64,000 nucleotides of DNA from Actinomucor elegans. Lineage: Eukaryota; Mucoromycota; Mucoromycetes; Mucorales; Mucoraceae. A program made the position numbers and the translations under genes. A model generated the notes under the pieces. That model made no database searches. It had not been told where the DNA came from and worked only from the letters and a program-made list of their open reading frames with translations. The DNA lies in contig JAMSLZ010000004.1 of NCBI GenBank assembly GCA_026027325.1, forward strand, positions 2,046,001 to 2,110,000. The letters run 5' to 3'. Positions 16,630 through 55,690 of the stretch are shown here, piece after piece (the stretch's first letter is position 1; every line of letters starts with the position of its first letter).

Positions 16630-17041
16630 TACAGTGACTTACAATACTGTCCGCATGTTTTGCAATTTTAGCTTCACATTATCATTACTCGCTCGATAAT
16701 GGCTGCAAAAATGTAAAATAATATCATTTGAAAGCCCAACAAAATCAATGCAATTTATTGAAACCTCAGATCATATGACTTTCCTAGTATAGAGTATTAA
16801 TCGTTTAAAAAAAAGGAACATCATGCGGACAGTATTGTGAGTAGGGGTTCACAAAATTTGTTTATCGATAAATCTGCTTTAATAATCGGTCCAGCGGCCT
16901 TTCGCTTTAATGACAGCTTCGCAGCGTAAATGCATACTATCAATAACAATCAAACATTCTTCATTGGTGATTTTGTGGTACCATACGTCTGTAACACGTT
17001 CAAAAAGCTCTTGCATGCCAGAAGGCGGAGTATCATAGTTA

Positions 17042-18673: not shown

Positions 18674-18675
18674 TA

Positions 18676-34474: not shown

Positions 34475-34989
34475 TACTTTTGCGCACAGCACTTGAGCAA
34501 CAACTTGAAGGATTCCCATTGAGATTGGACCCTCAAAGGTTCACCCTTACCACCAGAGCTAGCATTGTCACCATCACCACCAGAAGATTCGAAAAAGAGA
34601 GACACCGTCTTGTCCAGCAATAGGAGAAACTCTGAATCCTCCAGCAGAGTGGGATTAAAGCGCCAACAGCCAGGGCCAATACGAGCACAAGCAGGCTGCA
34701 GATCGATTGTCAAAAGACAGTGATCGGTCCACACACCAGGAACATAATGGACTTGACCATTCACCAACCGAGTCACCAGCGAAGTATGACCAAAGATATA
34801 ATCAATAGTAGTACCAGCCCTAGGAAAAGTAATAGGACCGTCCGGGAAACAGTTGTTAAAGTGGAGACGAAGCCAATCATACAGCGGAGCCACAGAGGAA
34901 AGACTTGTCTCGGCAGAAGAGTGCAGATGAATGTTGAAGTCACCTACCAACATCCAAGGCGTGTTGGACACCTCAGACCACAAAGCAAG

Positions 34990-35221
34990 GACGGATATCT
35001 ACAATTAATATATCTTTTAAATCTATTGTATATGTCCTATTTTTTTTTAATATATCCATATATTTTATAATTTATAACTTTTTTTCATGAATTAAAATTA
35101 TTATTAAGTATAATAAACATTATCAAGAAGGCAACTGTTCCATTTTGCATGAAAAAGCAATATTATATTTATGCTTTCTCCTAATATACGTACCAAATTT
35201 ATATGAAACAAGATGTCCGTC
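34990..35221. repeat. D1 unit U, left copy (232 bp)
   Basis: Direct repeat identical to 37098-37329 by eye. Inverted ends GACGGATATCT / AGATGTCCGTC (one mismatch) make it look like a stand-alone MITE. No ORF. Confidence 0.92.
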
Positions 35222-35242
35222 TTCTATAACATTTTAAATTAG

Positions 35243-36715
35243 TTACTTACTATTCCAATATATATTAATACAATCAAAACTATTAAATTTACTGTAATGT
35301 ATCCATGAATTATCCTCATCACTGTAGTTTTGCCATTTCACAAGGTAATAACTATCTTCGACTATTAACCCTTTATGATCCAAAATAGTTTCAATTTCAT
35401 AACTTTCATTATTATCTATATCTATTTCCAAGTCCATTTTCTCATTATTATAAATATTATTATTTTTAAAATGAGCAATATTTGATAATTCTAATCCTAA
35501 AAATTGTTGCTGTAATAATTTCATTTTATCTAAATTGTTTATTCTTTCATTTAACTTTGGAAGTGATTTATAATTTTCATTATTATTCAAAATATCATTT
35601 TTGTATTTAAAATCAAAGCTATCATTAATCCAATATGAATGAAAATCACTATGTTCTATATTGTTTAGTTTAATATATTTTTTTAAATTAAAAAGGACAC
35701 ATGCAATTTTTAGTTGAATATTATATATATTTATATTAGTAGTTAAAAAAGGTTTTTTGTTATTTAATCTTTTAAAGATACATCCCAAATCTGAGAAAGT
35801 TTTTTCCATTTTAGACCGAAAACTTCCAAATTGATCGTTATAATTTATTTCAATTTCATTTAAGTTTATATTTTTATCTTTTCTGATAGGATATACGAAG
35901 TTATAGTCATTTAGATCAGAACTATTTATTATATTATCTACGTATAGGCTATATCCTCCATCTAATGCAATACAATCCATCAAATTTAGTTTATTTTCAA
36001 TATTCATATTTATAAGCATAGATCCATCATTATTAGTACTACATGGTTGACTGTCTGATACAAATAATACCATACCATTTGTATCTATTGCAACTTGTGT
36101 TCTAAACCCATTTTTTTTAAGTTTGTAACTATAATATATGGATTTATCTTCTGCACCATATACCATACCTCTTTTATCATGGCCGTCTAAATGTATTGTT
36201 ACTTGATTAAACAAATCTGGATTCTCTATCATTCCATTTAAAAGTCTAATTTTTATATTTGAAAACATGTTTTGTAAAGAAAAACTTAAAATCTTATTTA
36301 ATTTTAACATTCTATCTGATGAATAAAATTGTCTGTATATTTGATGAAAAGTACTTTTTGATATATAATCATCCATATCTTCAATTGATATATTCTCTAC
36401 TATAAAATATAATATCAATAAGCCTTTTTCTATATTATTATATGGTCCTCTATAATCTCTATCTCCAAATAATATAACTAGGAAGAAATAAACAGGTATT
36501 ATTCCTAACTTTTCTAATAAAATCTTTTTAATTTCTTTGATCTTTTTAATAGATATAATCTTTTTAGTGTGATATTTTTTTTGTTCAATCTCTGGCCAAC
36601 CATAATTTAAAAATTTCCAATAATCATTTGTTAGAATCTGATACTCCATTAATAAAGTATCCTTAACACTATTAATATTATCCATTTGTTCTTTTTTATA
36701 TTGAGATAAATTCAA
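35243..36715 (-). CDS. DDE transposase with C-terminal chromodomain (D1), 490 aa
   Basis: Single-exon transposase, predicted to cut and join the ends of composite D1. The catalytic core resembles the DDE_Tnp_4 (PIF/Harbinger-like) fold: VTIHLDGHDKRGMVYGAED (first Asp about residue 177), SYKLKKNGFRTQVAIDTNGM, MDCIALDGGYSLYVD (second Asp), and FGSFRSKMEKTFSDLGCIFK (a Glu in MEKTF as the probable third residue). The C-terminal 50 residues (SYEIETILDHKG, YYLVKWQNYSDEDNSWIHYS) are a chromodomain with its aromatic positions (Y, W, W) kept, expected to bind methylated histone H3 or similar. Homologous over its length to the D2 protein at 53778. Codon use is extremely AT-rich. No disruption. Confidence 0.85.
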   Translation of the reverse strand: MNLSQYKKEQMDNINSVKDTLLMEYQILTNDYWKFLNYGWPEIEQKKYHTKKIISIKKIKEIKKILLEKLGIIPVYFFLVILFGDRDYRGPYNNIEKGLLILYFIVENISIEDMDDYISKSTFHQIYRQFYSSDRMLKLNKILSFSLQNMFSNIKIRLLNGMIENPDLFNQVTIHLDGHDKRGMVYGAEDKSIYYSYKLKKNGFRTQVAIDTNGMVLFVSDSQPCSTNNDGSMLINMNIENKLNLMDCIALDGGYSLYVDNIINSSDLNDYNFVYPIRKDKNINLNEIEINYNDQFGSFRSKMEKTFSDLGCIFKRLNNKKPFLTTNINIYNIQLKIACVLFNLKKYIKLNNIEHSDFHSYWINDSFDFKYKNDILNNNENYKSLPKLNERINNLDKMKLLQQQFLGLELSNIAHFKNNNIYNNEKMDLEIDIDNNESYEIETILDHKGLIVEDSYYLVKWQNYSDEDNSWIHYSKFNSFDCINIYWNSK

Positions 36716-37097
36716 TTTTTTATAACTTAAAATAAAATTAATAATAATATATATACATTATTATGTTTTAGAAAACATTTTTTATTTTGAAAAGTTTGAA
36801 GTAATTCTAAAATTTATTAATTTTATATTTTGCTTAGTCAGCAAAATTGTAAAATCAATTATTTTTTTTGAACTTTTTATTAATAGACAGATTTATAAAT
36901 ATTTTGTGTTACACAAAATATAATAAATCCTAATTGTTTTAAAGAAATAGAAAATATAAAAAGTTCACAAATTGTGAACATTTTTAATTTTCATGGAATG
37001 ACAAACAAATTGATAATTTGAAAAGAATTGTAGTGTTAAGCTGATTTTATAATTCAGAATTTTATAGCAACAGAAACATTTCTCTATGGTTATAGTA

Positions 37098-37329
37098 GAC
37101 GGATATCTACAATTAATATATCTTTTAAATCTATTGTATATGTCCTATTTTTTTTTAATATATCCATATATTTTATAATTTATAACTTTTTTTCATGAAT
37201 TAAAATTATTATTAAGTATAATAAACATTATCAAGAAGGCAACTGTTCCATTTTGCATGAAAAAGCAATATTATATTTATGCTTTCTCCTAATATACGTA
37301 CCAAATTTATATGAAACAAGATGTCCGTC
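37098..37329. repeat. D1 unit U, right copy (232 bp)
   Basis: Identical in length, sequence and orientation to 34990-35221. It lies upstream of the transposase gene (380 bp from the start codon), so it could contribute promoter sequence. Confidence 0.92.
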
Positions 37330-37745
37330 AAGAGAGAGAAAAGATTGTATAAACAGTGGACGGTCCGAAGTCTGTGCCGGTGCATAGATATTGGCCACGC
37401 GACACAAGACATTATGCTGGGCATCCTTGACAGTAGCCACAACACAACGCTCATCCAGGAGAACTTGAGCAGCATCCAAAGAAAGACCAGGCTTGAGACA
37501 GACAATGGCACAATGTTTGGACACCACAAAGGGACAGCGAGGAAAGAAGAAAGAGAAAGAGCGGATTTGATGGTCAGTGAGAGAAGATTGAGAATAGAAG
37601 TGAGATACCTCTTGCAAGCAAAGGATATCCACACCGAGAGAACGAGCGCGTAGGTAAGAAGCGAACTCCTTTTGTGTTGTTTTTTGGGACTCCATAAAAA
37701 TGCTACGCACACTTAAGGAACCCAATCGAATGTTTTGACCTAGCA

Positions 37746-39206
37746 TTATACCCTATGGGCAGAAGAAGAAGACTTGGAAGACTTGGACGTCTTGATAGCA
37801 GAAGCAGAAGCCTTGGTCTTCGCCACATTCACAATATTCTTCTTGAGAAAGTCAATCTTGTTTTGTGTTTTAGCCTTGACTTTGCTCAAATCCATCATCT
37901 CTTGCACTGTATCAACCTTCATGGTTGAAGCAACCTCGTAGTCAGCAAACTTGGAAGCTCGAGCACCAGTAGGACTGTTGGGATCGTACTCTACTCTCTC
38001 GCCAGAGAGCAGAGGATCACCCTCACCATCGAGCTCCATGACTTCAATGATTGAGTCATCACCAGGAACATCACCAGGAACATCACCAGAGACACCACCA
38101 GTAACACCAGAGACACCACCAGTTGCACCAGAGACACCACCAGCAACACCAGAGACACCAGCAAAACCATCACAAACATCAACCAAGGGCTCAGAAGCCA
38201 CATCCTGCTCAACCAGCACAATGGGAGCCTCTTCAACAACTACATCACCGTCGTTTGACGTAGTGACAGGACCAAATTTCTTCACCCCAGACAAAGCCAC
38301 ATAATCATCGAGCTCAGCCTCGAAAGACTTCACAGCTTGCTTCTTAGCTTTACAGAATCTTGCAGTGTGGCCTTTCTCGCGACAAGAGAAACACATACGC
38401 TTAGCCAACTCAGGGCAGTCCTTACGGACATGACCCGACAAGCGACAAAAGTGGCAAACAGGAGGAGCATTTTTAAACTGAGCAGGAGCAAACATGTCCC
38501 AAGCACTCAAGTACAGCATTCTTGTTAAAGGCTGAGGAGGAACCACCTCACCATCCTCACCTTCCATGCCAACCGAGGTATCAATCAACACCGACATCTT
38601 GCCCTCAAAGTAGCCCTTACGAGTGTACTTCTTCAACTGGTACACCTTACCATAAAAAGCTAATGAATCCAACATGTCAACCAGAAAGGTAGCTCTGTTG
38701 GGAGTACAACACACCAAATTAAACTGAACATGGGTCAGATTACCACCCACAGAAGAGCCAGAGCCAGAGCTAGTAGAAACGGCCTTGTATACAACACCAT
38801 TCACAGTAACACCATCATTGACAGCTTTGGTAGCGTCCGCCTTGCTATCGAAATTAGCTTCGACCAGAAGATCACCACCAGCACTTGCACGCATAGAACT
38901 AATGTGTCGGAAGTCCACATTAGCACCAACTTGTTCTTCAATGACCTTATACGCGTCAGTACGGTCACCAAACAGCTTCCCAGGGAAAGAGAACAGAACA
39001 GAGCTTGAACAAAGCGCCTGCTCCACCAGAGCAGCGGCTTTGCGCACCAACAGTTCGGACTTGAGGTCATCATCTTCAAAGATGACCTCACCAACAAGAG
39101 GAACAGCAGAGTTGTCGACATTACGTCGACCAGGAGTCAATGGAACCTTCTTGGAGGCACCACGGGCAACAACAGTTGTCCAGGACACGGCAGAATTTTC
39201 AGTCAT
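37746..39206 (-). CDS. LINE L0 ORF1, gag-like CCHC protein, 486 aa
   Basis: RNA-binding nucleocapsid-like protein of the LINE. Starts MTENSAVSWTTVVARGASKK. The central part is conserved with the other ORF1s (VYQLKKYTRKGYFEGKMSVL). It has two tandem CCHC zinc knuckles: CHFCRLSGHVRKDC and CFSCREKGHTARFC. Beyond these is a Gly/Val/Ser repeat (GGVSG, GVTGGVSGDVPGD) of variable length among copies. The tail KTKASASAIKTSKSSKSSSS ends at the TAATG that starts ORF2. Intact. Confidence 0.88.
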   Translation of the reverse strand: MTENSAVSWTTVVARGASKKVPLTPGRRNVDNSAVPLVGEVIFEDDDLKSELLVRKAAALVEQALCSSSVLFSFPGKLFGDRTDAYKVIEEQVGANVDFRHISSMRASAGGDLLVEANFDSKADATKAVNDGVTVNGVVYKAVSTSSGSGSSVGGNLTHVQFNLVCCTPNRATFLVDMLDSLAFYGKVYQLKKYTRKGYFEGKMSVLIDTSVGMEGEDGEVVPPQPLTRMLYLSAWDMFAPAQFKNAPPVCHFCRLSGHVRKDCPELAKRMCFSCREKGHTARFCKAKKQAVKSFEAELDDYVALSGVKKFGPVTTSNDGDVVVEEAPIVLVEQDVASEPLVDVCDGFAGVSGVAGGVSGATGGVSGVTGGVSGDVPGDVPGDDSIIEVMELDGEGDPLLSGERVEYDPNSPTGARASKFADYEVASTMKVDTVQEMMDLSKVKAKTQNKIDFLKKNIVNVAKTKASASAIKTSKSSKSSSSAHRV

Positions 39207-39412
39207 GTGCCAGATTTCTAGAAAATGGCGAGATTACGAAAAAAAAAAATTTTGAGATGTCGAAATTGGCTTTTTTTTTTTTTGTATTATAGATGTCGAA
39301 ATTGGCGAATTGAGATGTCAAGATCGAGCGAAATGTGGAAAAAGTTGGAGATGTGCAAAAATAATTATACCACCAGAAGCGCAGCGACGAGTAGAAGACG
39401 AATACGAAACAA

Positions 39413-39490
39413 GAGAGCACGCTGTTCACCATAAGTGAAAGCAACTTTGGACCTAATCACCGGAGGGAGAGCCAGAGAAACAGGACCAAA
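39413..39490 (-). repeat. ORF2-derived 78-bp fragment in the L0 5' region
   Basis: Nearly identical to ORF2 of L1 at about 40310-40387 (shared run through CACTTACGATGAACAGCGTG with two differences). It replaces the piece of 5' UTR found at the same place in L1 and L2 (GCGGAGATGGATGGATT). Same strand as the LINE. Confidence 0.85.
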
Positions 39491-39603
39491 ACAAAAAACC
39501 AGACGGATGCAAAATTTTTTTGCGAAAGAGCTTTTTTTTTTTTTTTGTATTAAATGTAATTTATTAATCTTAAAGTGGTTTTACAAAGCTAAATTACAAT
39601 GGA

Positions 39604-42600
39604 CTAATCTAATGTTGTGCTAGTAAACTCATCAGGAGTTCTACTATCTAAGAAAGTGGTGATAACAAAGCTGTTATCTGTCTTGAAGGAATTGAGGACC
39701 CAAGCTGAGGACCAAGTATCATCATGAATAACACATCGCCAATGTGCAGCCCATAAGGTATAGAAGATCGAACCCAAAATGGAAAGCACATCCGCGTCAA
39801 GCGGTTTACAATCGAGGCCACTTAGAGAGACAAGAGCAGCCCAGATGTTCGCATCAGACGGAAAGTCTTCACCCAAAGAGAGAAAGGCAAGAGCTTGACG
39901 CCAGTAGTCCGACTTTTGCGGGCAACCGACAGCAAAATGGTACAAGTCTTCATTAGCACCGCAGAGAACACAGAAAGGAGAAGGAAACTGCTGAGGAGAC
40001 CAGCGATTCACCCGAGAGCGATAACCAATCTTGTCGTGAAGCAGGCGCCACCAGGGAGTGAAAGCCTTGGCCACCATGGGAAGGGACCAAAACAAACGCC
40101 AAAAGAAAGGACGCAAAAGCAAGTGAGAAGCCACAGCCAAAGGAGGACCAGGACGAGCAGAAACAACAGAGTGATCAGCGTGCCAGAAGCGACGCAAGAC
40201 ACCAAGAGGGAGTTTGACCACAGATACCACCGAAGAGGGACCAGAAGGAACAGTCCAATGACGGGTCGATGGCATCCAGGAAGAAGCACCAGAACGAGAC
40301 ACCGGAAGAGCACGCTGTTCATCGTAAGTGAAAGCAACTTTGGACCTAATCACCGGAGGGAGAGCCAGAGAAACAGGACCAAAAGGAGGACTTAAACCAT
40401 AATAAACCGACTTGACATGGCTGGAACTTGGCAGAGCCTTATTGGAGAACAGGGTACCAGAGTGAATATTCCAGTGGAATATGTCAGACATGAGATACTT
40501 GGGAGCAACAGACGAAGGAACAAAACCAGGAGACAGATCATGAGCAACACCAGGAACAGAAGACACCACACAGCACAAAGGAAGATCCAGAAACCACCGA
40601 GAAGACCAAGAAGAATGCACCACCAGAGGGGGTAGCCGAACCAGAAGCTTGGTTAGATGATCCAGGGTTGGAATGCTATTCAACCGAGGCTTGAATCGTG
40701 ATGGATACATCAACCAAGGGAGAACCGAAGAATGACCAGAATAGGCTTGAAAGCAGAACACCAACCAAGGAGACACAAAATCCGAAGACACCAGAGGACG
40801 AAGCAGACGTTGAACATACACAAGATGCAAAGCAAAGCTCTGATCTTGGATGTCCACCAGACCAACACCACCATACTTGCGAGGAAGACACAAAGAAGAC
40901 CAAGACGGCGCGGGCCAAAACGATGCCACATACTTGCGCACTACTGCCTTGATATCCAGAAGCCACTTGCCAGGCACAGGAACCACACGAAGAAGATGAT
41001 ACACCTTGGAGAGCAACAGAGAATTCGCCACCAGACCAGTACCACGAATAGATAGGTGTCGTTCACGAAGCATGTTTGCATGCCTCTCCAACTTGACTTT
41101 GACACCATCCAGGAAATGCAACAACTGAGCATCGGTATGATACAGTGGATAACCAAGGTAACGCACCGAGCCAACAGACGACGAATCATGCCACTCTACA
41201 CCAGCAGCAGAAGCTATATCAACCCAAGGCTGATGAGCCACACCAGAAAGAGACACCAGAACAGTCTTGCTGAGATTCACCTTGGCGTTGGAGGCACGAC
41301 CATAGACCTCAAGAAGAGACAGAAGCACCAACCATTCACCAGGCGAAGACAAGAACACCTCAAGATCATCGGCATAACTGAGAAGCTTGATAGGAGCCGG
41401 AGGGGAAGAACCACTGACGAAATCAAGCGGGTAGTTACCCGTATCATCACCCAAATCAAGATGGACCTTTTGAGGGTTAGGGAGCCAAGTCCGAGGAACC
41501 ACCACAGGAGCCAGAGAAACACCAGACAGAGAAGAACAAGCCAAGACAGACCGCAACAGGGGTTCAAAGGCCAAGTTGAACAACAGAGGTGATAGTGGAT
41601 CACCCTGCCTAAGGCCACGCAACTGAGGAACAGCTGCTCCTAACCACCCGTTAATGGACACGGAGATCTTGGTACCAAAGAACAAAGAAGAGAGACAACC
41701 AACCAGACCAGAAGGAAAACCAAAACGAAGCAACACACGCCGAAGATACTCAGGATGGACTCGATCATAAGCCTTCTCTTGATCAAGTAACACCGCAACT
41801 TGAGGAAGGTTTGGAGCCACCGACCGAAGATTAGCCATCAACGTTTGATTCAACCACCCATTATCCGAGATCAATCGATGAGGAAGGAACCCAGTTTGAT
41901 AGCGGTTGATCAGCTTGGGAAGAACACGGTTGAACCTATTGGCCAGCAACTTGGTAAACAACTTGGCATCCGAGTTGATCAGAGAGAGAGGACGCCAGTT
42001 AGCCAAGAGCAGAGGATCACCTTTCTTGAACAAAAGCACCATCCGAGTTTGTTGCCACGAAGGAGGAAACACACCAGAGAAAGCACCACCAAGGACTGCC
42101 ACCAGCAAGTCCAGAAAAGGTCGCGAACGACCAGCCAAGTAATGATATACCTCGAAAGGGATACCATCCATGCCAGGAGACCGAGACCTAGGGGCGTGAG
42201 CCAGTAGATCCAGCACCGTAACGGCATTAGGCAGAGCCATCAGATACTTGGCATCATCCGAAGACAACACCACTTCTTCAGGAATACCATTCAAAAGAGA
42301 GTCCACGGCTTCGGCATCGATGTCGTCCGGGGTGTATAGCTTTCGGTAGAAACCACGAGCCTCCCGAAGTATATCAGCCGCTTCCACCAAGACCTCACCA
42401 GTAGTAGAGCACTTCAAGGACTGGATTGTCTGTTGAGACTGGCGATCCTTGATGACACGATAGAAATACTTGTTGTTACGTTCACCCAGTTCATGCCAAT
42501 GAGTGGCAGAGCGAAGCATATTCTGGCGTGTTTCTTTCTGAATCTGACCATCAATCAATTTCTCTAGCTCATGCACCACCTGAAGAGGAAGTGAATCATC

Positions 42601-43656
42601 ACTAGGTTGAATTGACGGTGTAGCATCACTAGCCATAATACCTGAGACAGAAGAGGAAACAGCCTTCATACGTTCCTGTTGTAAAGCAGCAACCTTGTTC
42701 TTGAATCGAGCCTTAGCACCCCAAGCGTACTTTTGCGCACAGCACTTGAGCAACAACTTGAAGGATTCCCATTGAGATTGGACCCTCAAAGGTTCACCCT
42801 TACCACCAGAGCTAGCATTGTCACCATCACCACCAGAAGATTCGAAAAAGAGAGACACCGTCTTGTCCAGCAATAGGAGAAACTCTGAATCCTCCAGCAG
42901 AGTGGGGTTAAAGCGCCAACAGCCAGGACCAATACGAGCACAAGCAGGCTGCAGATCGATTGTCAAAAGACAGTGATCGGTCCACACACCAGGAACATAA
43001 TGGACTTGACCATTCACCAACCGAGTCACCAGCGAAGTATGACCAAAGATATAATCAATAGTAGTACCAGCCCTAGGAAACGTAATAGGACCGTCCGGGA
43101 AACAGTTGTTAAAGTGGAGACGAAGCCAATCATACAGCGGAGCCACAGAGGAAAGACTTGTCTCGGCAGAAGAGTGCAGATGAATGTTGAAGTCACCTAC
43201 CAACATCCAAGGCGTGTTCGACACCTCAGACCACAAAGCAAGAGAGAGAAAAGATTGTAGAAACTGTGGACGGTCCGAAGACTGTGCCGGTGCATAGATA
43301 TTGGCCACACGACACAAGACATTATGCTGGGCATCCTTGACAGTAGCCACAACACAACGCTCATCCAGGAGAACTTGAGTAGCATCCAAAGAAAGACCAG
43401 GCTTGAGACAGACAATGGCACAATGTTTGGATACCACAAAGGGACAGCGAGGAAAGAAGAAAGAGAAAGAGCGGATTTGATGATCAGTGAGAGAAGATTG
43501 AGAATAGAAGTGAGATACCTCTTGCAAGCAAAGGATATCCACACCAAGAGAACGAGCGCGTAGGTAAGAAGCGAACTCCTTTTGTGTTGTTTTTTGGGAC
43601 TCCATAAAAATGCTACGCACATTTAAGGAACCCAATCGAATGTTTTGACCTAGCAT
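39604..43656 (-). CDS. LINE L1 ORF2: endonuclease / reverse transcriptase, 1350 aa
   Basis: Carries out target-primed reverse transcription. The N-terminal APE-type endonuclease covers about residues 1-230 (VDILCLQEVSHF, ANIYAPAQSSDR, MLVGDFNIHLH, TIDYIFGHTSL, WTDHCLLTIDL). The reverse transcriptase lies in the middle: FKKGDPLLLANWRPLSLINS, then VAVLLDQEKAYDRVHPEYLR, then GLRQGDPLSPLLFNLAFEPL, with catalytic LLSYADDLEVFLS. The C-terminal zinc-binding region reads AFTPWWRLLHDKIGYRSRVN and FCVLCGANEDLYHFAVGC (C-C-H-C). Domain order fits L1/Tx1-like LINEs. The start codon overlaps the ORF1 stop by one base (TAATG). No stops; likely competent. Confidence 0.93.
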   Translation of the reverse strand: MLGQNIRLGSLNVRSIFMESQKTTQKEFASYLRARSLGVDILCLQEVSHFYSQSSLTDHQIRSFSFFFPRCPFVVSKHCAIVCLKPGLSLDATQVLLDERCVVATVKDAQHNVLCRVANIYAPAQSSDRPQFLQSFLSLALWSEVSNTPWMLVGDFNIHLHSSAETSLSSVAPLYDWLRLHFNNCFPDGPITFPRAGTTIDYIFGHTSLVTRLVNGQVHYVPGVWTDHCLLTIDLQPACARIGPGCWRFNPTLLEDSEFLLLLDKTVSLFFESSGGDGDNASSGGKGEPLRVQSQWESFKLLLKCCAQKYAWGAKARFKNKVAALQQERMKAVSSSVSGIMASDATPSIQPSDDSLPLQVVHELEKLIDGQIQKETRQNMLRSATHWHELGERNNKYFYRVIKDRQSQQTIQSLKCSTTGEVLVEAADILREARGFYRKLYTPDDIDAEAVDSLLNGIPEEVVLSSDDAKYLMALPNAVTVLDLLAHAPRSRSPGMDGIPFEVYHYLAGRSRPFLDLLVAVLGGAFSGVFPPSWQQTRMVLLFKKGDPLLLANWRPLSLINSDAKLFTKLLANRFNRVLPKLINRYQTGFLPHRLISDNGWLNQTLMANLRSVAPNLPQVAVLLDQEKAYDRVHPEYLRRVLLRFGFPSGLVGCLSSLFFGTKISVSINGWLGAAVPQLRGLRQGDPLSPLLFNLAFEPLLRSVLACSSLSGVSLAPVVVPRTWLPNPQKVHLDLGDDTGNYPLDFVSGSSPPAPIKLLSYADDLEVFLSSPGEWLVLLSLLEVYGRASNAKVNLSKTVLVSLSGVAHQPWVDIASAAGVEWHDSSSVGSVRYLGYPLYHTDAQLLHFLDGVKVKLERHANMLRERHLSIRGTGLVANSLLLSKVYHLLRVVPVPGKWLLDIKAVVRKYVASFWPAPSWSSLCLPRKYGGVGLVDIQDQSFALHLVYVQRLLRPLVSSDFVSPWLVFCFQAYSGHSSVLPWLMYPSRFKPRLNSIPTLDHLTKLLVRLPPLVVHSSWSSRWFLDLPLCCVVSSVPGVAHDLSPGFVPSSVAPKYLMSDIFHWNIHSGTLFSNKALPSSSHVKSVYYGLSPPFGPVSLALPPVIRSKVAFTYDEQRALPVSRSGASSWMPSTRHWTVPSGPSSVVSVVKLPLGVLRRFWHADHSVVSARPGPPLAVASHLLLRPFFWRLFWSLPMVAKAFTPWWRLLHDKIGYRSRVNRWSPQQFPSPFCVLCGANEDLYHFAVGCPQKSDYWRQALAFLSLGEDFPSDANIWAALVSLSGLDCKPLDADVLSILGSIFYTLWAAHWRCVIHDDTWSSAWVLNSFKTDNSFVITTFLDSRTPDEFTSTTLD

Positions 43657-45149: not shown

Positions 45150-46049
45150 GTGCCAGATTTCTAGAAAATGGCGAGATTACGAAAAAAAGTTTTTGAGATG
45201 TCGAAATTGGCGAATTGAGATGTCAAGATCGAGCGAAATGCAGAAGATGTTGAAGATTTGCAAAAATAATTATACCACCAGAAGCGCAGCGACGAGTAGA
45301 ATACGAATACGAAACAAGCGGAGATGGATGGATTAAATTGAGCGAGATATTGACAAAAAACCAGACTTTTTTTTTTTTTTTTTTTTGTATGAAGTGTAAC
45401 TTTATTAACATTTAGTATTCTAATTTAATTCTAACAAACTAGGAGATTCAGTGGCAGTGGATGTACTAGCCATGAATTCCGAAATTATAAGTGAATGGTC
45501 ATGCTCGAATGCATTAATAGCATGAGCAGAGGACCAGGATTCATCATGAATTACGCATTTCCAATGCAAACGCCAAACTGTAGCTAAGCCGGCACCAAGG
45601 AGCACCAAAAGGTCATTCGAAAGAGGTACTGACTTGAGATCACACAAGGTGACCAAGCCGGACCAAACAGAAGCAAGATCGCAGAGAGGTTCTTGGAGAC
45701 AGAGCAGCTGGATCATATCCATCCAAAAGATAGCCTTCATCGGACAGTATACGAGCATATGGCCAAGTGTTTCCACTTCACCACAGAGGCCACAGAGAGG
45801 AGACAGGTACACATTTGGATTCCACCGATACAAGCGAGCACGATAACCAATGCGGTCATGCAAGAGACGCCACCAAGGAGTGAATGCTTTTGCAGGCATA
45901 GGCAAAGGAGGTCATACAGATACTCGCAATTTCACTATGGCGAAAATATTGTGTGCTACCCATAATATTATGTGGTAAAACGACGATTTTATTATCATTT
46001 ACCTACTAATACTATAGATTTACCTACTAATAATAATCTGCGAACCAAT

Positions 46050-47540
46050 GAAATTAGAGCAATTATTTTCTATGGCTGCGCAATTAACAGTGCTTTGCTC
46101 ATTTATTAGTGGTTACTCCTAATATTAGTGGAAAGCAGACAATAATGTTATGGGTTTAGTCAATATTATAACATAAATTGACAATAAGAAAGAAAAGCCT
46201 GAACTCCATTTTATTTGCAAACAATTTTTATGTATTCTTGTCTTTTGCCGATGAAAGCCAAATCTTGCAAACTTCTTATAAATGAGTACATGAAATTCTG
46301 ATGCTTGTACGCAACAACATAATCCTCGTTTATTTTATTTACTAAAATGAACTCTGCTTTTCGTTTCAACGATCTTTTATGTAAATTCCTAGAAACGTTT
46401 AATTTCAACGTTTGTCAAAAATAATGTTGAACAATTGTCTTTCAAATGCGTTTATTATTCGTTGAAAAGTCTCTTATACAGGTCAGGTTGCAAAAAATTC
46501 TCTTGTAAATTACTCTTTTGGAAACAAGAACGAATCGCTAGTTCCATTTAATAAGCTGAGCACTTTCATTGCCGTGATTTAGCCTTTGGCTAATAGCTGT
46601 GTATTTAAAATGCTGAATGACATTAAGAATGAGCTGCCATTAAGTGTCTAATTTACTCAATTTTATGTTTAGTAAAATTATAGAATAAAGAAAGAAAGAA
46701 AGAAAAAAAGAAAATACATTGCGTTAAAAAAAAAAGAAATACATTGCGTAAAAAAAAAGAAATATATTGCGTAAAAAAAGAGATAAATTATTGTGTAAAA
46801 AAAAAATAGGTCAAGTAGCGATTATTAATTGCCAGTAATCTTAGTCATTATTGCTAGGCGGTTATTTAACTAGATGATTTATTGTCAAAATCATATATCC
46901 ACTTCTCAAACTACAAAAAAACGCGTTCGTTTTTGGACTTTCGAGTAATTGATGATTATGATAGAATTCTTAATGACGATCGAAAGCTTCAAAAACATGC
47001 ACGTTTTTTTAGGTGCTAGAAAACTACAATCGATGAACATTTTTGCTGTCTGTTGGAAAATTAATCCGCATTGCTTGATAATAAACTAATTTTACTATAA
47101 AGATAAACAAGAGCATTAATCATATTTTACATTTGGTTTTAAAGATTAACTGGAGCAACTAAATAGTCAATTAACATTATTGAATGATGAATATAGAACT
47201 GTATAACTTGGGTTATCCTGGTTCTATATTTCTGATATTATGAAATAATTTCTTAAACATCAGGGAAATGGGTTAAATTTTTGATTAAGAAATGTTTTTA
47301 CATTCTGTTGCAAGATTGCTAATACCTTTCTCTCGAATTAATAACATGATATATAAAAACGAGTTAAATTATCTATAGTTTATATCTACTACAGAAAGTG
47401 TAAATACCTATTTTACTTTTGCTATATTATGATGAAGTCCTTTTGGAGGGAAGCTTTATATTATTTTCGGTGGTTTAAATACATAATCAATTCAGAGAAC
47501 AATTTTATTTCAAAATAAAACGCTTTTTGCTCTTGTCTTC
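46050..47540. other. Non-coding left part of the CACTA element
   Basis: AT-rich, without a recognisable ORF. Contains a short GAAA-type microsatellite with repeated ATTGCGTAAAAAAA motifs (46680-46810), possibly subterminal repeats. The region 52010-53100 at the other end is equally empty. Confidence 0.5.
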
Positions 47541-47547
47541 ATGCTAT

Positions 47548-50519
47548 TTACAAACGACTTAATATGCCAGCATTTTGCTCTAGATCTTGTTTAAATATAT
47601 GATGAGAGATGATCTTGAACTCTTTCTCATTAGATTCACTTGAACGCACAAGACCTACACTGGCAACAATATCTTCAAACCGACAGACAGCGTAACTGTG
47701 TGCACCGCTACTGTGCAGCTCAACCAAAGCAATAGTCTTGTCATATTTGGTAGTTGCATTCTTTTTCGCTAAATCAACCAAAGCCAAATACTGTGGTCTA
47801 CCATTGAATGAATGCTCGAAAAAGAAAACGATAGAACCAATGAACCAGCTTTCACGAATGGAATTATTTCGACTATTAACAAAGGTTGGTTAATCAAAGA
47901 GGTTTTTGTTCTTGAGCTAATTACTTACTTCAAGTAGCTGGCAGTGATCATCACGTAATTGTTTCCTCGACGATATTCATTTATATGGCTTTTATACATG
48001 GTAGACGTATATACATTGCCATATGCCCAGGCACGACCAGCGATGGAAATACTATTCAACGAATCAATTTCAGCAATATTTACACCATTTGCTTCAGTAC
48101 GGCGATAGTAATGCAATAGCGCCTTCAAAAAAGTTTGAGTGGAGACACCAAAGGGAAGAGTATCCACTGAAATATTACTAAAGGGAGCCCATAATTGTGG
48201 ATCACTAGCATCACCAGAAGGGTTATTCCTGAAAGTGGATTCGCTGTATTTTCGAGGAGTGATCAGGTCAAGCTCAGTATGAACATCCCAAGTCTGGCTG
48301 TTTATATGATTACGCGTTATGAGTCTTTCCAAGATATTACCAGCGTTTGCGCCAGCATCAACCTTTGACTTGATGAGCTTTTTGTATTTTCCGATGCTTC
48401 TTTCCATTGATCGGGCGGAATATGCTCTCAACACACCTTGTTGTTTGATCATATAGACTATATGCGAAAGGTAGTGTTGAACAGGCTTGAATACACCGGA
48501 ATGAATACGCTTTGCCTTGATTTCTGCCAACAAAAATTCTTGCCATTCTTTGATATATCTTTGGAAAGTATGTAAGTAAACTAGATTTATGAGTACAAAA
48601 AAAATATATTTACCTTTCCATCAGAATAAGGTCTTCAATAGAAAGTTCCCATTTAAGAGCCAATGCGACAGCTTTTGTCAGATGAATCAATGGTTTCTTA
48701 GCGGATTCTTGAATCAATTCAGGAACGAACAAGGTGGGAATCATATATAAGAAAATATCAATCCAGTCAACAGCACGTTTGCCACCACTCTTGATAATTG
48801 GATCTTCCCATTTGGATGAAAAGGATGTCGGTACAGTGGCTCTAGAAGCTTCAACAAGTTTACCAATTTTGATGAGCGATAATTTTGGAATATAGAAAGT
48901 ATACGGCCATTCATCAGCAGACTTCAATCGGGCATCACTCAATTCATCTTCATTGGGCTTATATCGAGTTTTTCTTGCTGCATTGTACTCTTTACCCATG
49001 TCGACTGTCAGCATATTGAATACGTGTTGAGCGATACCTTGTCCGAGAAGATGCATTTCGTCTAAACCAAAAAAGTAGCGCCAGTAAAACTGGGAAGTAT
49101 TGCAAATGGTGTTGCAGACTTGATACTGTAGCTCTATGAGGTAAAAAGAAAAAGAAATGTTAAAAACTTGTAAAGATTAATGCTGATTATAGTACTTACA
49201 TTCGCTGCATCTGGGGAAATGAAATCGTTTCTGCTTCTGATCTCATTGTCGATCGTTAAAAAACAATTATGATAATCATGACGTTCAGCTTGGACACGAC
49301 AAATACGGCAACCAAACGTAGCCATATGACCAATATGATTTGCAAGCTCAGCTGCAGCAGGAAGATCACCAGTAGCCATCACCAAGTTGACTTTAGCTTG
49401 ACAAACAATTACACCATCCTTTTGTACAAGCATGCCTTTGGTAGACAGAGCATGAAACTCATCAATAATAGGCTTTAAAAAGGTATGCATGTACTTTGGG
49501 TAGTTTGGACCTGGCAAGATCGCCAATTGAAGCATGTATTCGTCTTGGTAGCGGTATTCTGGGGGAATGTTCATATTCAAGAGATGGATGATTGTTAACT
49601 TGTCCCCTTTATGATTCTTGCTAGTACAGAAACCATCGACAAAAAGAACCATTGCGACATCATCTTCACCGGAAAACAGAATGCTATTATCCTTAAAGTA
49701 CTTGTATGCTGCACCATCAAAGTAATCTTTATATTCACCGTCAGTTGATTTATAGTTGTAGCGGTATTTCATCAAGTCTCTTGTCTTTGCATTCGCAAGC
49801 ATTTGAGCGACTTGTTCACCAATAGGAAGCATCTTCATAGAGCGACGAGGTTTACCATGATCATCAAAGCGATTTTCTTTACAAGCAGGGTTTTTACATT
49901 GAATAGTCTCTATATCTTCCTTTTCAAACAGCATGCAACCATTGACGCAGACATCATGAAAATGACATTGAATATTGGTTTTTGCTTTAAGAGTACGATC
50001 CAAGGTATCAGGGAACATGAGAGTGGATGGTAGGTAACCTATATATAATGGGAATAAAAGCTGATAAGTACTTTTTTTTTAACTCTATTTGAATAGATAC
50101 ATACCCAATCCATCGGTTTTACGGCTCTCTTCATTGTTTTTGATTATGGTACGCATTAGATAGACAAGTTCTCTTTGAGCCTCTCGAGGAATACCATACG
50201 TGTCGCAAATATCTCTCAATTGGATGCTATTTAATTCCGTATTGGTGAAAAGGTTTTGATCCGAGGATTTGACGTTGTAAGCAATTGGAGTAGGCTCTAT
50301 TTCAAACAAGGTATATTGTTAAATTAAAAGCTTTAGTAATATATCTGTTAACTCACCTTGGACAGGAATGCTAGCTTCTTGCGTTTGGACGACCCTTTGT
50401 TTTCTATGATCACGATTATGGCTATAGTGATTACTCCTAGCTTTAACAGTTTTGAATGGCCTCAAACAAGTAGCGCAAGTATATTTATATGGTGTAGCAG
50501 AAGAGGAAACTTTGCCCAT
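47548..50519 (-). CDS. CACTA Tnp2-type transposase with N-terminal C2H2 finger
   Basis: Spliced transposase in about six exons: 50519-~50358, ~50296-50105, 50026-~49198, ~49133-48610, ~48545-47925 and ~47880-47548. Exon borders inside the gene are approximate. The first exon has a C2H2-like finger (CATCLRPFKTVKARSNHYSH). Then come the Tnp2 N-terminal motif CHFHDVCVNGCMLFEK with a following cysteine pair, and VAMVLFVDGFCTSKNHKGD with its acidic residue. Next are the family block QLAILPGPNYPKYMHTFLKP and ATGDLPAAAELANHIGHMAT with CRIC. The later exons (VQHYLSHIVYMIKQQGVLRA, RSMERSIGKYKKLI) match the Tnp2 C-terminal half. All exons are open, so it is plausibly functional. Closest in style to fungal Plavaka/Dileera-like CMC elements. 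Confidence 0.85.
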
Positions 50520-50924
50520 TTAAAGATAAGTAAAAACAAGTAAATATATCGAATTAATGAATAGCGGTTTTGTTGTTTAGAAAAAGCAGGTCTTAAATAC
50601 GTTTGCTTGGTCTACAATTGACAGAGTTCTCAATGGTAATTCATTGTTTTAGGCTGTTGAATCCTTTGAACTAATCAGCTTTTCATATTACTCAGCCTTC
50701 CAGATTATTCAGATATCGAATACATTTTAATGGATCCTTATGATTTCTAATCAAGCTAATTCCTTTCCAAGTCAGTCATACCTGTCAGTAAGCTTACTTT
50801 CCAGAAAGCTCTTTGGACATTAGTAAGGATTACTAATGGATAAATGGTAAAGTACGCTTATAAAACAGTTAAATAGCTCAAATCATTCAATCACTTTTCT
50901 TTATAATATATTTACTTTATAGCT

Positions 50925-52007
50925 ATGTCAAACAACAACAACAATAATTGGAGCGTCTACTTTGAGAAGATTGAACAAGAAATCTTAATCAACCGTCGTT
51001 TAATTCAAGATTTGATCCAAATATTAGCACCTCTATTTCCTCGAGAAGCTTCGAGGGTTTCATCTAACGAAGAAATTGAACAAGCACTTGACGATGGTAC
51101 AATCATATCTGAAGCATGTTACTACATTCAGTTTTATTAACCTCTTAGCTTGTCATATATAGCTGAACGAGAAGCAATTGCAAATGCTTTGAATCCTAAT
51201 TTACGTAGTAAACGGTCAATCCCAAAAGTGCTAGAAGAAGCAAAAGTGCGTTATCAACAAAAGGCAACCAAGACAAATGTCACCCCTTCTGCACCATTAA
51301 GGTTATATGCCCTCTTGAAACACCTCAAGTATATAAAAGGCCAACAAAATGAACTGACCGATGATGATGTTCAACCGCAATACAATACGTTGAAATACTT
51401 GGCAAGAGATGTCTTGAAAGACATGGAAAGGGCAAATATAAATATTGTTGGTAAAACTTGGAGTGAAATTGGCGAAGAGGATACCAGCATTCAAGAACGT
51501 TATGCTTTGCTTTTAGAGAAACGTGCTTTAGATGTGGGCTTGCATCTGCATCTCTGTGTAGAGATGTGGGCTGCCAAGTTACTTTTATCTGAAGCACTCA
51601 AAAACAAGAAGACTGTACGTACCAGAAGTAATTCTGCTGAAGAAGGTGAAAGTCAACAAAATCAAGAATCTGTTGAAGACAATGAGATTGAATCGTTCTT
51701 CAGGTTAGATGCTTTTTTATTTCTGTTTTTATATCTTTATTAATATGCTTGTTATGCAAATAGTGTGGATAATCAGCATATCCTTGTTGATCGTCTAGCT
51801 ACTTCTGTTGCTCCAGTTGGTCTTGCATCTCCAATTGCTAGCTTGTTGGATCTACATTCTGCTCGCTCATCAACGAAAAGAAAAGCCATTACGGTTCAAC
51901 CTGACGTTGGTGAAGATGAGGAGGCTGGATCTGACAATCGTTCCAAAGAAGCGGATTCCAATAAGCGTAAACCACGCTCTAAGAAAAATACAAAAAAAAC
52001 GAAATAA
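50925..52007 (+). CDS. CACTA accessory protein of unknown function
   Basis: Not recognised. Three exons (50925-51096, 51163-51703, 51764-52007) join in phase with GT-AG sites. The Asn-rich start MSNNNNNNWSVYFEKIEQEI leads to helical segments (LIQDLIQILAPLFPREASRV; DVLKDMERANINIVGKTWSE; YALLLEKRALDVGLHLHLCV) and an acidic linker. The tail is Lys/Arg-rich (SNKRKPRSKKNTKKTK) and looks like a nuclear localisation signal. It is transcribed away from the Tnp2 gene, sharing a 405-bp promoter region. By analogy with TnpA of plant CACTA elements it may bind the subterminal repeats; that is inference. No disruption. Confidence 0.75.
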
Positions 52008-53311
52008 ATATAGACGTTTTTTTATTGGTTTAAGTAGCTGACGTAGCATTTTTCTGCGGCTTTTCAGTATTAAGAAAAACTTTTTTACACCAATCTTGAG
52101 TTTCTTTCTTTTTTTTCGTTTGCTAAATTGGCACATTAAACGTAAGGTTTCTTGACATTTGTCACTCTTATTGCGCACAACACTTTAACTGAAGCTTCTG
52201 TATAATAGGAATTAACCTCAATGTCAGCTTGTAATTGTGTTTTTTTTTCCAAGCTTTCGAATATTTCCCTCGTTCTTAATGTCGTAATTATCTATAAATA
52301 CGTCGTCATTCATACTGCTTATATTCTTATACTGACTTGTATTCTTAAATACTTATACCACTTCAGTAATACTTATAGCCAGTAATGCCATATAGCTTTT
52401 GAACCTTTACTATTAGTTTTAAAGCTAATAACCATTAAGTAAGTGCAATGATTACTAATCCATTAATTTCTTTGTATATTAATCTAATACTGTTATAATA
52501 GATTTAGTTGTGTATATATACAAGACGAAGACTATTAAAACTGTAGCCCAGTGAATTATAATTGATTGTGTCTGATATAGTGTTGGTAAGTCTGTAGCAA
52601 TAGCGAGTTTCATTCAAGAATCTAATCATTACTTACTTTAGGAAAAGATGATTAAAATATGCTATTATACAAGCGTGGGCCATTCTTCTAAAGGTTAGTT
52701 CAAATATACTCTTAAAATATTGTTTCATCAACGATAACTGACATTATTTATACAGTTATTTGCTTAATTCATTTACCTGTTACTTGCCAGTGGGACATAA
52801 ATTCTTTTATACTTGTATGACAATAAGGTAAGTTAAATACTGTTCGTGTGTGATAGAAAGCTGGTTATTGTATATTCAGCTATTGAAGGCTAGTGTGTAT
52901 TAGAGTAATATCTGTTGAAGTTATATATTATATAAATAAAAAAAATAGCAATTAAATTATTATCTGAATAACCAAAATGACTATAATATTATTAGTAGTG
53001 TATTGTGAATATATGATAGAAAACTAATAATAATATTGATTATAAATCATCAATATGGAGGGATTAATCCATACTATTATTGACTGGAAACCACTACTAT
53101 TATACAATTTACCCATAATAATATTGAAGGAAAACCCTTAATATTATAGTATTTACCCATAATATTATCGAATAAGAGTCACTAATATTATCAACCGCCG
53201 AAAAAACACTGCCTAGAAATTGACAATAATTATTAGCAGAACTATAGTCGATTTTACCCCTAATATTATCAACTTTTGGGCAAAAAACCGACAATATTTT
53301 CGCCATAGTGA

Positions 53312-53570
53312 TTGTTGTACAATTACTCGTACAGGTTCTGGGTTAGTGGATGACCTTAGGTATTTACTCATGGGCATATTTTTGGCTGCTGTGATGTTCT
53401 CTGGATATGTGTACCCATTTAAATGGCTATTTCCAATTTTTAAAACGGCTAGAAATATTTGGAATGCCGGAGACATATTGTATAACCACATTCTATTGCA
53501 CCCGGTCATCCACTAACCCAGAACCTGTACGAGTAATTGTACAACAATTGCGAGTATCTGTATGACCTCC
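53312..53570. repeat. D2 unit U, left copy (main part; start at 45907-45931)
   Basis: Together with 45907-45931 and minus one TT this gives 282 bp, identical by eye to the right copy. The middle (TTAGGTATTTACTCATGGGC onward) fixes the orientation as direct relative to the right copy. Confidence 0.92.
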
Positions 53571-55408
53571 TAGTGGGATATCTCACCACACACTGGTAGA
53601 CATACGTTCCATAGCAAGGTAGTAGAGAGGGGGGGGGGCCAAAAGGGATGATCTTGTCCAGAGACCTGAATAGTTTCAGCCCCCCTGGGAATGGAAACTA
53701 AGGAGCCTAAGGTTGTAGTACGAGTAACATGTGTTGACAGTTGGGCGAAGCTTTTAAAAAGAATCCCCTTGTGGAACCTACTTCTTCCGCCTTCTTCTAA
53801 CGTCTTTCTCATACTCGATAATAATATCAGAGTCGTCGAAGTTGTTAGGAGAAAGCCAACTATTGCTACTCTCATCATAGCCTACCCACCTAACCAAATA
53901 CTCTCTACGATGCTTTGGTCCACGATGCCCAACAATGGCCTCAACCTCGTAGTGTCCTTGTGGTAAGTCCTCGTCGATGGGTTCGTCATCAGAGCCATTA
54001 TCTTCGTTCACCCCCAAAGAGAGAAACTGCTGCTGTATTTCTTTTACCATCTCAGCATCTTGGGACTTTTCCGCAATTGTAAGGGTACTTACTACGTCAT
54101 AGGCATTCTTACTGCTGCCATTTGGAAAGTCGAAGTTAGGCTGCATCCAAAAAGTATGTTGTTCAGAGCTAGAAACACACCCAATGTTAACAAACTTCTT
54201 GATGTTTGCAAGAAGACATGCAAGCTTGAACTGTACCGTGAATGTCTCCATCTCGGTAACTCGAATAACGCCTTTACCGTTGAATCGTTGAAATAAGGTT
54301 CCAATCTCTCCAAACGTTGCTTCTATCGAGGAACGAAAGCTTCCAAGAATGGAGTTGTAATTAACTTCTTCTTGTTTCAGACCCACTCCTCGAGACTTAC
54401 GGATAGGGAATACAAAATTATGGCGATCCAGGTGACGATTATTTGCTACAATACGATCTATAAAAGTAGTGTATCCACCATCAACGACAACACAATCGTA
54501 CTTACTAATCTTCTTCTTCAACCGCATATCAGCAAGCATAGACCCATCGTTGTTATCTGAACATGGTGCCGCATCGGAGACAAACAACACCATCCCATTA
54601 ACATCTGTACATACTTGTGTTCGGAAGCCAGACTTCTTAAGCTTATACGAATAGAACATGGCATGATCTGCAGCGTTGATATATGTTGCTCTAGAATCAT
54701 GTCCATCTATCATCAAGGTAACATGCTTAAAATCTTCAGGGTTTCGGTGAAGAGCACACATAATTCGCAGCTTTGTTGAGGAGAACATCTTTCGTAGGCA
54801 ATAGTCCAAACAGGTATTCAGCTCCTCTCCGTATTTTGTATAAAAGGCATTGTAAATAGCATGGTAGCTACTAGAAGGGATGAAACGTGCCATATGCGCA
54901 ATAGAACAACCGGTAAGAAGCTGGTAGATTATCAACAATCCTTTGTCCACGTTGGAATATGGACCAGGATATTCTTGGTTTGCAAACAGCTCTACGAGAA
55001 AGAAAAAAACAGGTATGTAGCCAAGATGCTCCAACACATAAGTTTTTACATGCTGGATATCTTTTACAGGCTTAACCTCAGACCGGTGATACTTAGTCTT
55101 TTCCAACACTGGCCAATCCTTAGAAAGAAACTGCCAGTAAGTCGCCATAAGCAACGTAAACGCATCTACTATTTCTTTCGGAAACATGTTTATTTAAGAA
55201 TGCTGTAGTATAATAGGAGTTGTATGCTACCAAATGCTGTTGTTCACTCCCAGTCCTACAGTGTAGCCTTAGGCTCCTTAGTTTCCATTCCCAGGGGGGC
55301 TGAAACTATTCAGGTCTCTGGACAAGATCATCCCTTTTGGCCCCCCCCCCTCTCTACTACCTTGCTATGGAACGTATGTCTACCAGTGTGTGGTGAGATA
55401 TCCCACTA
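53571..55408 (-). mobile_element. D2 central module with 145-bp inverted ends
   Basis: Starts TAGTGGGATATCTCACC and ends with its inverse. The inverted ends run about 145 bp with few mismatches and include a G9/C9 run. It sits exactly between the two U copies with no duplicated bases other than TA at its own tips. Confidence 0.9.
53778..55187 (-). CDS. DDE transposase with C-terminal chromodomain (D2), 469 aa
   Basis: Homologue of the D1 protein along its whole length. N-terminal helical region (LEHLGYIPVFFFLVELFANQ, PGPYSNVDKGLLIIYQLLTG), then the DDE core: VTLMIDGHDSRATYINAAD (D161), YSYKLKKSGFRTQVCTDVNG, LFVSDAAPCSDNNDGSMLAD, YDCVVVDGGYTTFID (D236), and LGSFRSSIEATFGEIGTLFQ (E289 as probable third residue). 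The spacing and FGEI/RF motifs point to the DDE_Tnp_4 (PIF/Harbinger) group, which also fits a 3-bp target duplication. Residues 412-460 are a chromodomain (HYEVEAIVGHRG, EYLVRWVGYDESSNSWLS, then an acidic helix), ending RRRRKK. Intact, normal base composition, unlike D1. Confidence 0.87.
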   Translation of the reverse strand: MFPKEIVDAFTLLMATYWQFLSKDWPVLEKTKYHRSEVKPVKDIQHVKTYVLEHLGYIPVFFFLVELFANQEYPGPYSNVDKGLLIIYQLLTGCSIAHMARFIPSSSYHAIYNAFYTKYGEELNTCLDYCLRKMFSSTKLRIMCALHRNPEDFKHVTLMIDGHDSRATYINAADHAMFYSYKLKKSGFRTQVCTDVNGMVLFVSDAAPCSDNNDGSMLADMRLKKKISKYDCVVVDGGYTTFIDRIVANNRHLDRHNFVFPIRKSRGVGLKQEEVNYNSILGSFRSSIEATFGEIGTLFQRFNGKGVIRVTEMETFTVQFKLACLLANIKKFVNIGCVSSSEQHTFWMQPNFDFPNGSSKNAYDVVSTLTIAEKSQDAEMVKEIQQQFLSLGVNEDNGSDDEPIDEDLPQGHYEVEAIVGHRGPKHRREYLVRWVGYDESSNSWLSPNNFDDSDIIIEYEKDVRRRRKK

Positions 55409-55690
55409 GGAGGTCATACAGATACTCGCAATTGTTGTACAATTACTCGTACAGGTTCTGGGTTAGTGGATGACCTTAGGTATTTACTCATGGGCATATT
55501 TTTGGCTGCTGTGATGTTCTCTGGATATGTGTACCCATTTAAATGGCTATTTCCAATTTTTAAAACGGCTAGAAATATTTGGAATGCCGGAGACATATTG
55601 TATAACCACATTCTATTGCACCCGGTCATCCACTAACCCAGAACCTGTACGAGTAATTGTACAACAATTGCGAGTATCTGTATGACCTCC
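55409..55690. repeat. D2 unit U, right copy (282 bp)
   Basis: Uninterrupted unit with inverted ends of about 67 bp (GGAGGTCATACAGATACTCG inward to GGTTAGTGGATGACC). Direct repeat of the left copy. MITE-like, with no convincing gene. Confidence 0.93.

Follow-up and report, generated by a model that had tools for sequence, protein, structure and literature searches.

Two composite transposons in the window

The window considered here, i.e., the whole 64,000-nt stretch of Actinomucor elegans contig JAMSLZ010000004.1, contains two transposable elements, D1 and D2, in which two copies of a short unit (U) bounded by terminal inverted repeats (TIRs) flank a module (M) with a transposase gene. D1 belongs to a family termed F1 and D2 to a family termed F2, and the genome searched for further copies comprises 36.5 Mb; L-numbers below denote fetched loci and C-numbers contigs of the same genome.

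The two U copies of D1 (34990-35221 and 37098-37329, both on the plus strand) are direct, 232 bp long and 100% identical, as a first-pass annotation of this DNA had described; the left copy has the ends GACGGATATC and GACGGACATC, which are also the outer ends of the block. The module between them, M1 (35222-37097, 1876 bp), shows no target-site duplication (TSD) at its junctions with U, and its sole frame above 65 codons is that of the transposase (35243-36757, minus strand, 504 codons from stop to stop), with DDE_Tnp_4 and Chromo matches. By flank comparison, the TSD AAG (34987-34989 and 37330-37332) borders the whole block rather than each U. D1 is surrounded by long interspersed nuclear element (LINE) sequence, and another LINE copy in the window provides a paralogous empty site (43143-43342, plus strand, inside or beside LINE frames), which matches at 97.5% over 200 bp with no gap and a single copy of the 3-bp target.

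D2 likewise is bordered as a whole by AAA (45904-45906 and 55691-55693), so that the annotation's assignment of the 3-bp duplication to the block held for both elements, as did its mention of a 282-bp U and of a nested CACTA element in D2. The first 25 bp of the left U (45907-45931, plus strand) are followed by this CACTA-type element (45932-53311), which has 21-bp inverted ends starting with TCACTATGGCG and a Transposase_21 match on the minus strand (49134-50075); the rest of the U (53312-53570, plus strand) repeats 2 bp of the nested element's target. Module M2 (53571-55408, 1838 bp) has 142-bp inverted ends (53571-53712 and 55267-55408) and carries a transposase frame of 471 codons on the minus strand (53778-55193), again with DDE_Tnp_4 and Chromo matches, its other frames reaching up to 136 codons. 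The right U (55409-55690, plus strand, 282 bp) has a perfect 67-bp TIR (55409-55475 and 55624-55690). D2 sits in a LINE frame, and paralogs of its site are only weak (71-74%).

The annotation had further stated that modules have inverted ends of their own and that U is unrelated between D1 and D2. The former stands for D1 (about 9 bp) and D2, but the inspected copies of five other families (F4, F6, F7, F9 and F10, below) have at most about 3 bp, and inverted module ends are thus not a general feature. The latter stands for U1 against U2, which show no similarity above shuffles, but U1 (35142-35177), like U1′ (the unit of a diverged F1 relative, F1′), shares some 36 bp of internal AT-rich sequence with the unit of F9 (L069:381-417). 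The similarity is marginal, with 1 and 0 of 200 shuffles reaching the score for U1 and for U1′, and the stretch is possibly a common binding site or hairpin.

The transposase and its relatives

The transposases of D1 and D2 are 40% identical over 471 aligned positions, in agreement with the homology claimed earlier, and Pfam assigns to both PF13359 (DDE_Tnp_4) plus a C-terminal chromodomain. With the D2 transposase as query (best 90 of 425 candidates scored), nine distinguishable transposase types were found in the genome; PF13359 scores above the gathering threshold in all nine families scanned, and a 387-residue piece of F7 gave no chromodomain match. Similarity to the IS5 family is weak. 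By these domain assignments, D1 and D2 are classed as two families of Harbinger/IS5-type transposons, whose chromodomain, judging from its fold, probably either directs insertion towards methylated histones or anchors the enzyme there. A structure comparison gave no Harbinger-type chain among the matches listed, which excludes nothing. Homologs of such elements are present in Mucoromycota, and no relatives were found in collections of viral contigs and genome contigs.

Copies of F1 and F2 in the genome

A 25-base pattern from the end of U1, allowing up to 2 mismatches, gave 59 matches in the whole genome, whereas its reversed control gave none; an internal 25-base pattern of U2, allowing up to 3, gave 61 (three with 3 mismatches) vs. 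none, so the units are not chance patterns. A search with the right-hand 339 bp of M1 (all 30 candidates scored) gave 24 matches at 99% or more over this length. U sequence lies on both sides of all 24, and both U ends are in the pattern list for 23; in the remaining one, L024, an F9 element splits the left U. The outer U is shortened in L013 and L028, and nested DNA interrupts four modules (L011, L013, L022 and L030/L031). Identical 3-bp flanks border 19 of the 21 composites with both outer ends intact (the exceptions being L021 and L023). The 12 remaining U1 matches are solo units, of which, leaving aside the truncated L038, ten of eleven have a 3-bp TSD (not L037).

Finding the module by itself with its own TSD would speak against a composite unit; none of the 24 M1 copies lacks U. 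The interpretation of U-M-U as a composite unit, put forward in the first-pass annotation, is supported by these counts, by the solo U with TSDs and by the many full blocks with TSDs and empty sites.

The F1 solos (L032-L043) carry 100A in six copies and 74C with 141A in three, variants that are absent from the aligned composites; among these matches, an older F1 wave thus appears to be represented by solo U alone. The composite L012 and the solo L036 have related flanks and the same insertion point with different TSDs (CAA and CTA), which suggests a target hot spot.

For F2, 15 composites were fetched and counted, further pairs among the U2 matches lying outside the count, and 14 of them have a 3-bp TSD (not L064). 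A chain, U-M-U-M-U, at C21:2358212-2366250 has the outer flanks TAA and ACT and hence no TSD; it is the one multimer seen. Eight loci hold solo U2: L026, L053 and L061 have a TSD and L060 has none, whereas L050, L055, L058 and L068 have one common flank without a TSD and resemble copies of a larger repeat. L065, where part of a U lies next to F9, was left out of the F2 counts.

Direct orientation of the U pair, as annotated, holds for D1 and for the window copy of D2, but not throughout F2: among 14 copies normalised to M, seven are direct, either (+,+) (the window copy, L051, L054 and L059) or (-,-) (L045, L064 and L067), and seven are inverted, all of them (+,-) (L047/48, L049, L056, L057, L062, L063 and L066), with no (-,+). 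Left out of this count is L052, where a palindromic deletion derivative (L052:536-2010, TSD ATA) has mirrored right M2 ends between inverted U. Part of F2 also carries a 1.75-kb insert at M2 position 182-190 with an apparent 9-bp direct duplication (L045, L047, L051, L054, L057, L062, L066 and L067).

Further families with and without the paired plan

U-M-U blocks were also found in F4 (U of 220 bp), F6 (239 bp), F7 (288 bp), F9 (221 bp) and F10 (292 bp); one copy each was fetched for F4, F6, F7 and F10 and two each for F3, F5 and F9, plus nested F9 copies. The fetched copies have identical U pairs and the TSDs AGA (F4), ACT (F6), ATA (F7), AAT (F9) and ATT (F10). The pairs are direct in F1 and, among the matches listed, in these five families. 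Uninterrupted, the U-M-U families measure about 2.1 to 2.8 kb and are near-identical between copies.

Taking L030/L031 as one interrupted copy, a TSD was found in 15 of 16 F9 composites (10/10 further composites and 5/6 in fetched loci), the exception being the copy in L054 (ATT/TAT). Further copies of F10 (2/2), F6 (1/1) and F4 (1/1) have it as well, as do four of six F9 solo U, plus an F9 solo in L047. Two F9 copies, C5:24143 and C9:581672, have the same flanks and are probably one duplicated insertion. When four U were searched jointly, with the best 40 of 66 candidates scored, further pairs came up, including older ones whose two members have unequal identities, namely 98% (C7:509559) and 99% (C7:511990) in F10, and 99% (C1:2903268) and 100% (C1:2905427) in F6. 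Copies of U7 type lie within about 1.4 kb of contig ends (C24:734, C10:735, C21:3609969 and C18:709) and are perhaps subtelomeric.

The plan is common but not universal in this transposase group, since F5 and F3 are built otherwise. F5 (L074/L078), which has no U, is a simple TIR element of 2150 bp with the TSD TTG and an empty site. F3 consists of two TIR-bounded units joined by 40 bp: one, of 1805 bp and with TIRs of 208 bp, holds the transposase, and the other, of 1219 bp and with TIRs of 202 bp, a 201-codon frame. F3 occurs at L070, L076, L047/L048, L017, C8:338777 and other loci, with 14 paired-arm copies of the transposase unit. The F3 pair in L047/L048 is bordered by AAT, and the window contains a matching empty site near 18347; the target of the pair is a relative of the Tc1/mariner-type element at 17040-18679 of the window (HTH_Tnp_Tc3_2 and DDE_3 matches). 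An F7 module also has an extra frame, of 128 codons (L075:656-1042), upstream of the transposase, and neither the F3 nor the F7 extra frame has a Pfam match above the cut-off. In the transposase tree, which has long branches, the midpoint root divides the U-M-U families, and F3 and F5 branch among them; on this tree a single origin of the U-M-U families is neither shown nor excluded.

Empty sites and the equality of paired units

To detect empty sites, the flanks were joined around one copy of the 3-bp target and compared with the window and all fetched loci; a match was accepted if it was free of gaps, spanned 170 bp or more and reached 94% or better. Such a paralog was found for 17 of 41 composite and 3 of 16 solo queries, the remainder having none among the fetched loci. 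Examples are an F1 element inside M2 (L045 vs. L059, L056 and L051) and an F7 element inside F9 (L075 vs. L077). The empty sites contain no U at all, which argues against insertion into a pre-existing U or U-U. This bears directly on an alternative raised in the annotation, i.e., that the module inserted precisely at the junction of a pre-existing U-U tandem. Although the U|M junctions are indeed precise, no U-U tandem was found among the 59 U1 and 61 U2 matches, and for F1 the proposal is contradicted as a general account; we give it next to no credence.

A second alternative is that U is an independent family of miniature inverted-repeat transposable elements (MITEs), cross-mobilised by the transposase, and that U-M-U blocks are chance composites comparable to bacterial IS-flanked transposons. 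Solo U with TSDs and empty sites do exist, and older F1 solos carry variants of their own, e.g., 100A. However, U flanks every M1 on both sides, the plan recurs across seven transposase families, and U co-diverges with its module in F1 and F1′, making this reading improbable; chance pairing as a general account was rejected.

Of the two possibilities named in the annotation, homogenisation of the paired units is supported; the other, production of both in each transposition, is neither shown nor excluded. The two U of F1′ in L045 have no substitutions between them (one T-run gap), and both differ from U1 at 48 of 232 positions; likewise, the two U of F7′ in L044 have none (one gap), and both differ from U7 at 28 of 288. 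The F7′ module has no match to M7, and F7′ thus looks non-autonomous. Three private U substitutions were found in F2 composites, two of which occur in both U of the element, namely A183G in L062 and T75C in L066, both inverted pairs, while G58A occurs in the right U of L063 only; the F2 module cores mostly have 0 to 3 private changes. Equalisation therefore affects both inverted and direct pairs, and it does so within the age of single F2 lineages. As judged from these alignments, the two U of one element evolve in concert.

In F1 composites, 43 aligned U have no substitutions and only one-base T-run gaps (in the left U of L012, L015, L019 and L027 and the right U of L014), whereas 7 of 11 solos have substitutions. 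This contrast bears on a third alternative, in which old solo U serve as landing sites: circles of one U plus M would enter them by homologous recombination, and composites would inherit the TSD of the solo. Integration into solo repeats has been proposed, among other routes, for the KolobokP transposons discussed below (PMC9587614, in the sections consulted). In its favour, solo and composite agree in TSD length and ends, and the position-51 T-run gap of U1 is found in the left U of four composites and in 6 of 11 solos. Yet the F1 composites come near to containing no U that stems from an older solo, and the empty sites without U of the 17 composites also count against it, so that we regard this route as very improbable.

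Proposed movement of the block

The sequence data establish insertion of the block with a 3-bp TSD, precise U|M junctions, solo U within 3-bp TSDs and concerted evolution of U. On this basis, we consider it probable, with real room for doubt, that the block transposes as a whole and that recombination keeps its U copies equal. The transposase would recognise the outer TIRs and move the entire U-M-U block. The two U would be equalised through gene conversion or homologous recombination with each other, for which cuts by the transposase may provide the start; where the inverted repeats are long, as in F2, the same process could turn round the U core together with M, and it could release solo U. 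A parvovirus-like hairpin flip-flop for F2 was rejected as a general mechanism, since U2 folds as a 67-bp stem (z -19) and U1 does not (z 0.3).

Several points weigh against transposition of the block with U conversion. Neither process has been observed directly, and the founding U pair, which looks identical in F1, F1′, F2, F4, F6, F7, F7′, F9 and F10, would also fit regeneration upon each transposition. Single-U excision products, expected if inner ends are cut, were not found among the 24 F1 modules. The 3-bp TSD is lacking in L021 and L023 of F1, L064 of F2, the F9 copy in L054 and the F2 dimer. Finally, the T-run gap confined to the left U in four F1 copies (L012, L015, L019 and L027) would mean that unequal U were inherited, though it may be assembly noise. 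T-run gaps in M contradict its use as a mark of inheritance, an idea that was given up.

The regeneration just mentioned could take the form of a replicative, cointegrate-like cycle, in which U-U recombination frees a circle of one U plus M, leaving a solo U; the transposase then nicks both ends of the circle's U and joins them to a new target, and replication through U yields target-U-M-U-target. Identical direct U and an outer TSD would follow from the mechanism itself, and the cycle explains the absence of a TSD at U|M, the solo U with TSDs, and the plan in seven transposase families with mostly unrelated U. However, births should then be direct, whereas half of the 14 F2 copies are inverted, and random flips after birth predict (+,-) and (-,+) equally, whereas all seven are (+,-) (two-sided 0.016). 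The matched private substitutions in the inverted pairs L062 and L066 speak against it as well, and canonical Harbinger elements move by cut-and-paste. The cycle is thus doubtful in our view. The bolder claim that paired ends are rebuilt at each jump in this manner, with solo U as the resolved product, we hold to be unlikely; if true, the elements would be a eukaryotic counterpart of the IS26 translocatable units, evolved independently of KolobokP. That seven F2 copies, inserted at different sites, all have one and the same inverted state speaks for inheritance of the whole block rather than its reconstruction from a circle with one U.

Comparison with known systems

The annotation had found the plan unlike any standard eukaryotic DNA transposon. 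This is correct for the standard ones, but the plan itself is that of KolobokP (Kojima and Bao 2022, PMC9587614), in which, according to the consulted parts of that paper, a DDD/E transposase region lies between two long direct repeats with short TIRs. Those parts describe the paired ends as unique to one animal lineage, leave their maintenance open, and invoke a homing endonuclease for part of the behaviour. As far as these parts go, the likeness extends to an internal region between two long repeats that have TIRs of their own (here in D1, D2 and other families), to solo repeats with TSDs, and to repeats that may move as non-autonomous units. In contrast, KolobokP belongs to the Kolobok superfamily of animals, its repeats measure about 450 or 660 bp and its TSDs 3-5 bp, it has a His-Me homing endonuclease, and multimers are common, whereas the elements here are from a fungus and have a Harbinger/IS5-type transposase (set apart from Kolobok by Pfam), mostly with a chromodomain, a 3-bp TSD, U of 220-292 bp, one multimer (F2, without a TSD) and, in F2, inverted pairs. 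The transposase frame is the only one in D1, where M1, having no other frame above 65 codons, holds no gene for a His-Me finger endonuclease.

The PF13359 transposase, the 3-bp TSD and a TIR starting with G resemble the PIF/Harbinger-ISL2EU-Spy (PHIS) group. In the consulted parts of two papers, canonical PHIS elements have single TIRs, TTA/TAA targets, often a second gene, and a Myb/SANT-like protein in some lineages (PMC2213677, PMC12730594). The elements here differ by their paired U, a single gene in D1, a chromodomain, and targets that are A/T-rich overall but not restricted to TTA or TAA (3 of 43 TSDs listed). A second, Myb/SANT protein is absent from D1, with its one substantial frame, and was not recognised in the extra frames of F3 and F7, which lack Pfam matches.

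As in bacterial composite and pseudo-compound transposons, such as the IS26 translocatable units, two TIR-bounded repeats bracket a cargo and move together with it. The bacterial composites carry the transposase in the repeats (PMC9587614, in the same parts), whereas in D1 and D2 it lies in M and the repeats are non-coding; in F3, unlike D1 and D2, it lies in a TIR-bounded unit. With long terminal repeat (LTR) retrotransposons, the elements have in common that direct repeats occur both in pairs and solo and that older pairs have diverged (98 and 99% in F10). However, M encodes a DDE transposase, the repeats carry TIRs, and in F2 their orientation can be either way round; no reverse transcriptase was found in M, where the long M2 frame and the one substantial frame in M1 both encode DDE transposases.

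No Harbinger-type element with paired ends was found among the titles and abstract starts listed in searches of openly licensed PMC papers. What looks new is the occurrence of the KolobokP plan, as an independent case, in the Harbinger/IS5-type transposase class and in a fungus; as read from sequence, the elements are built like KolobokP, yet D1 is without the endonuclease feature and the transposase type differs by Pfam. That a fungus has this plan in another transposase class, and in at least seven families, suggests a repeatable solution rather than an accident, and also that an endonuclease is not needed for it. Since these families are short and near-identical and the genome is small, the upkeep of identical ends, left open for KolobokP, is directly testable here.

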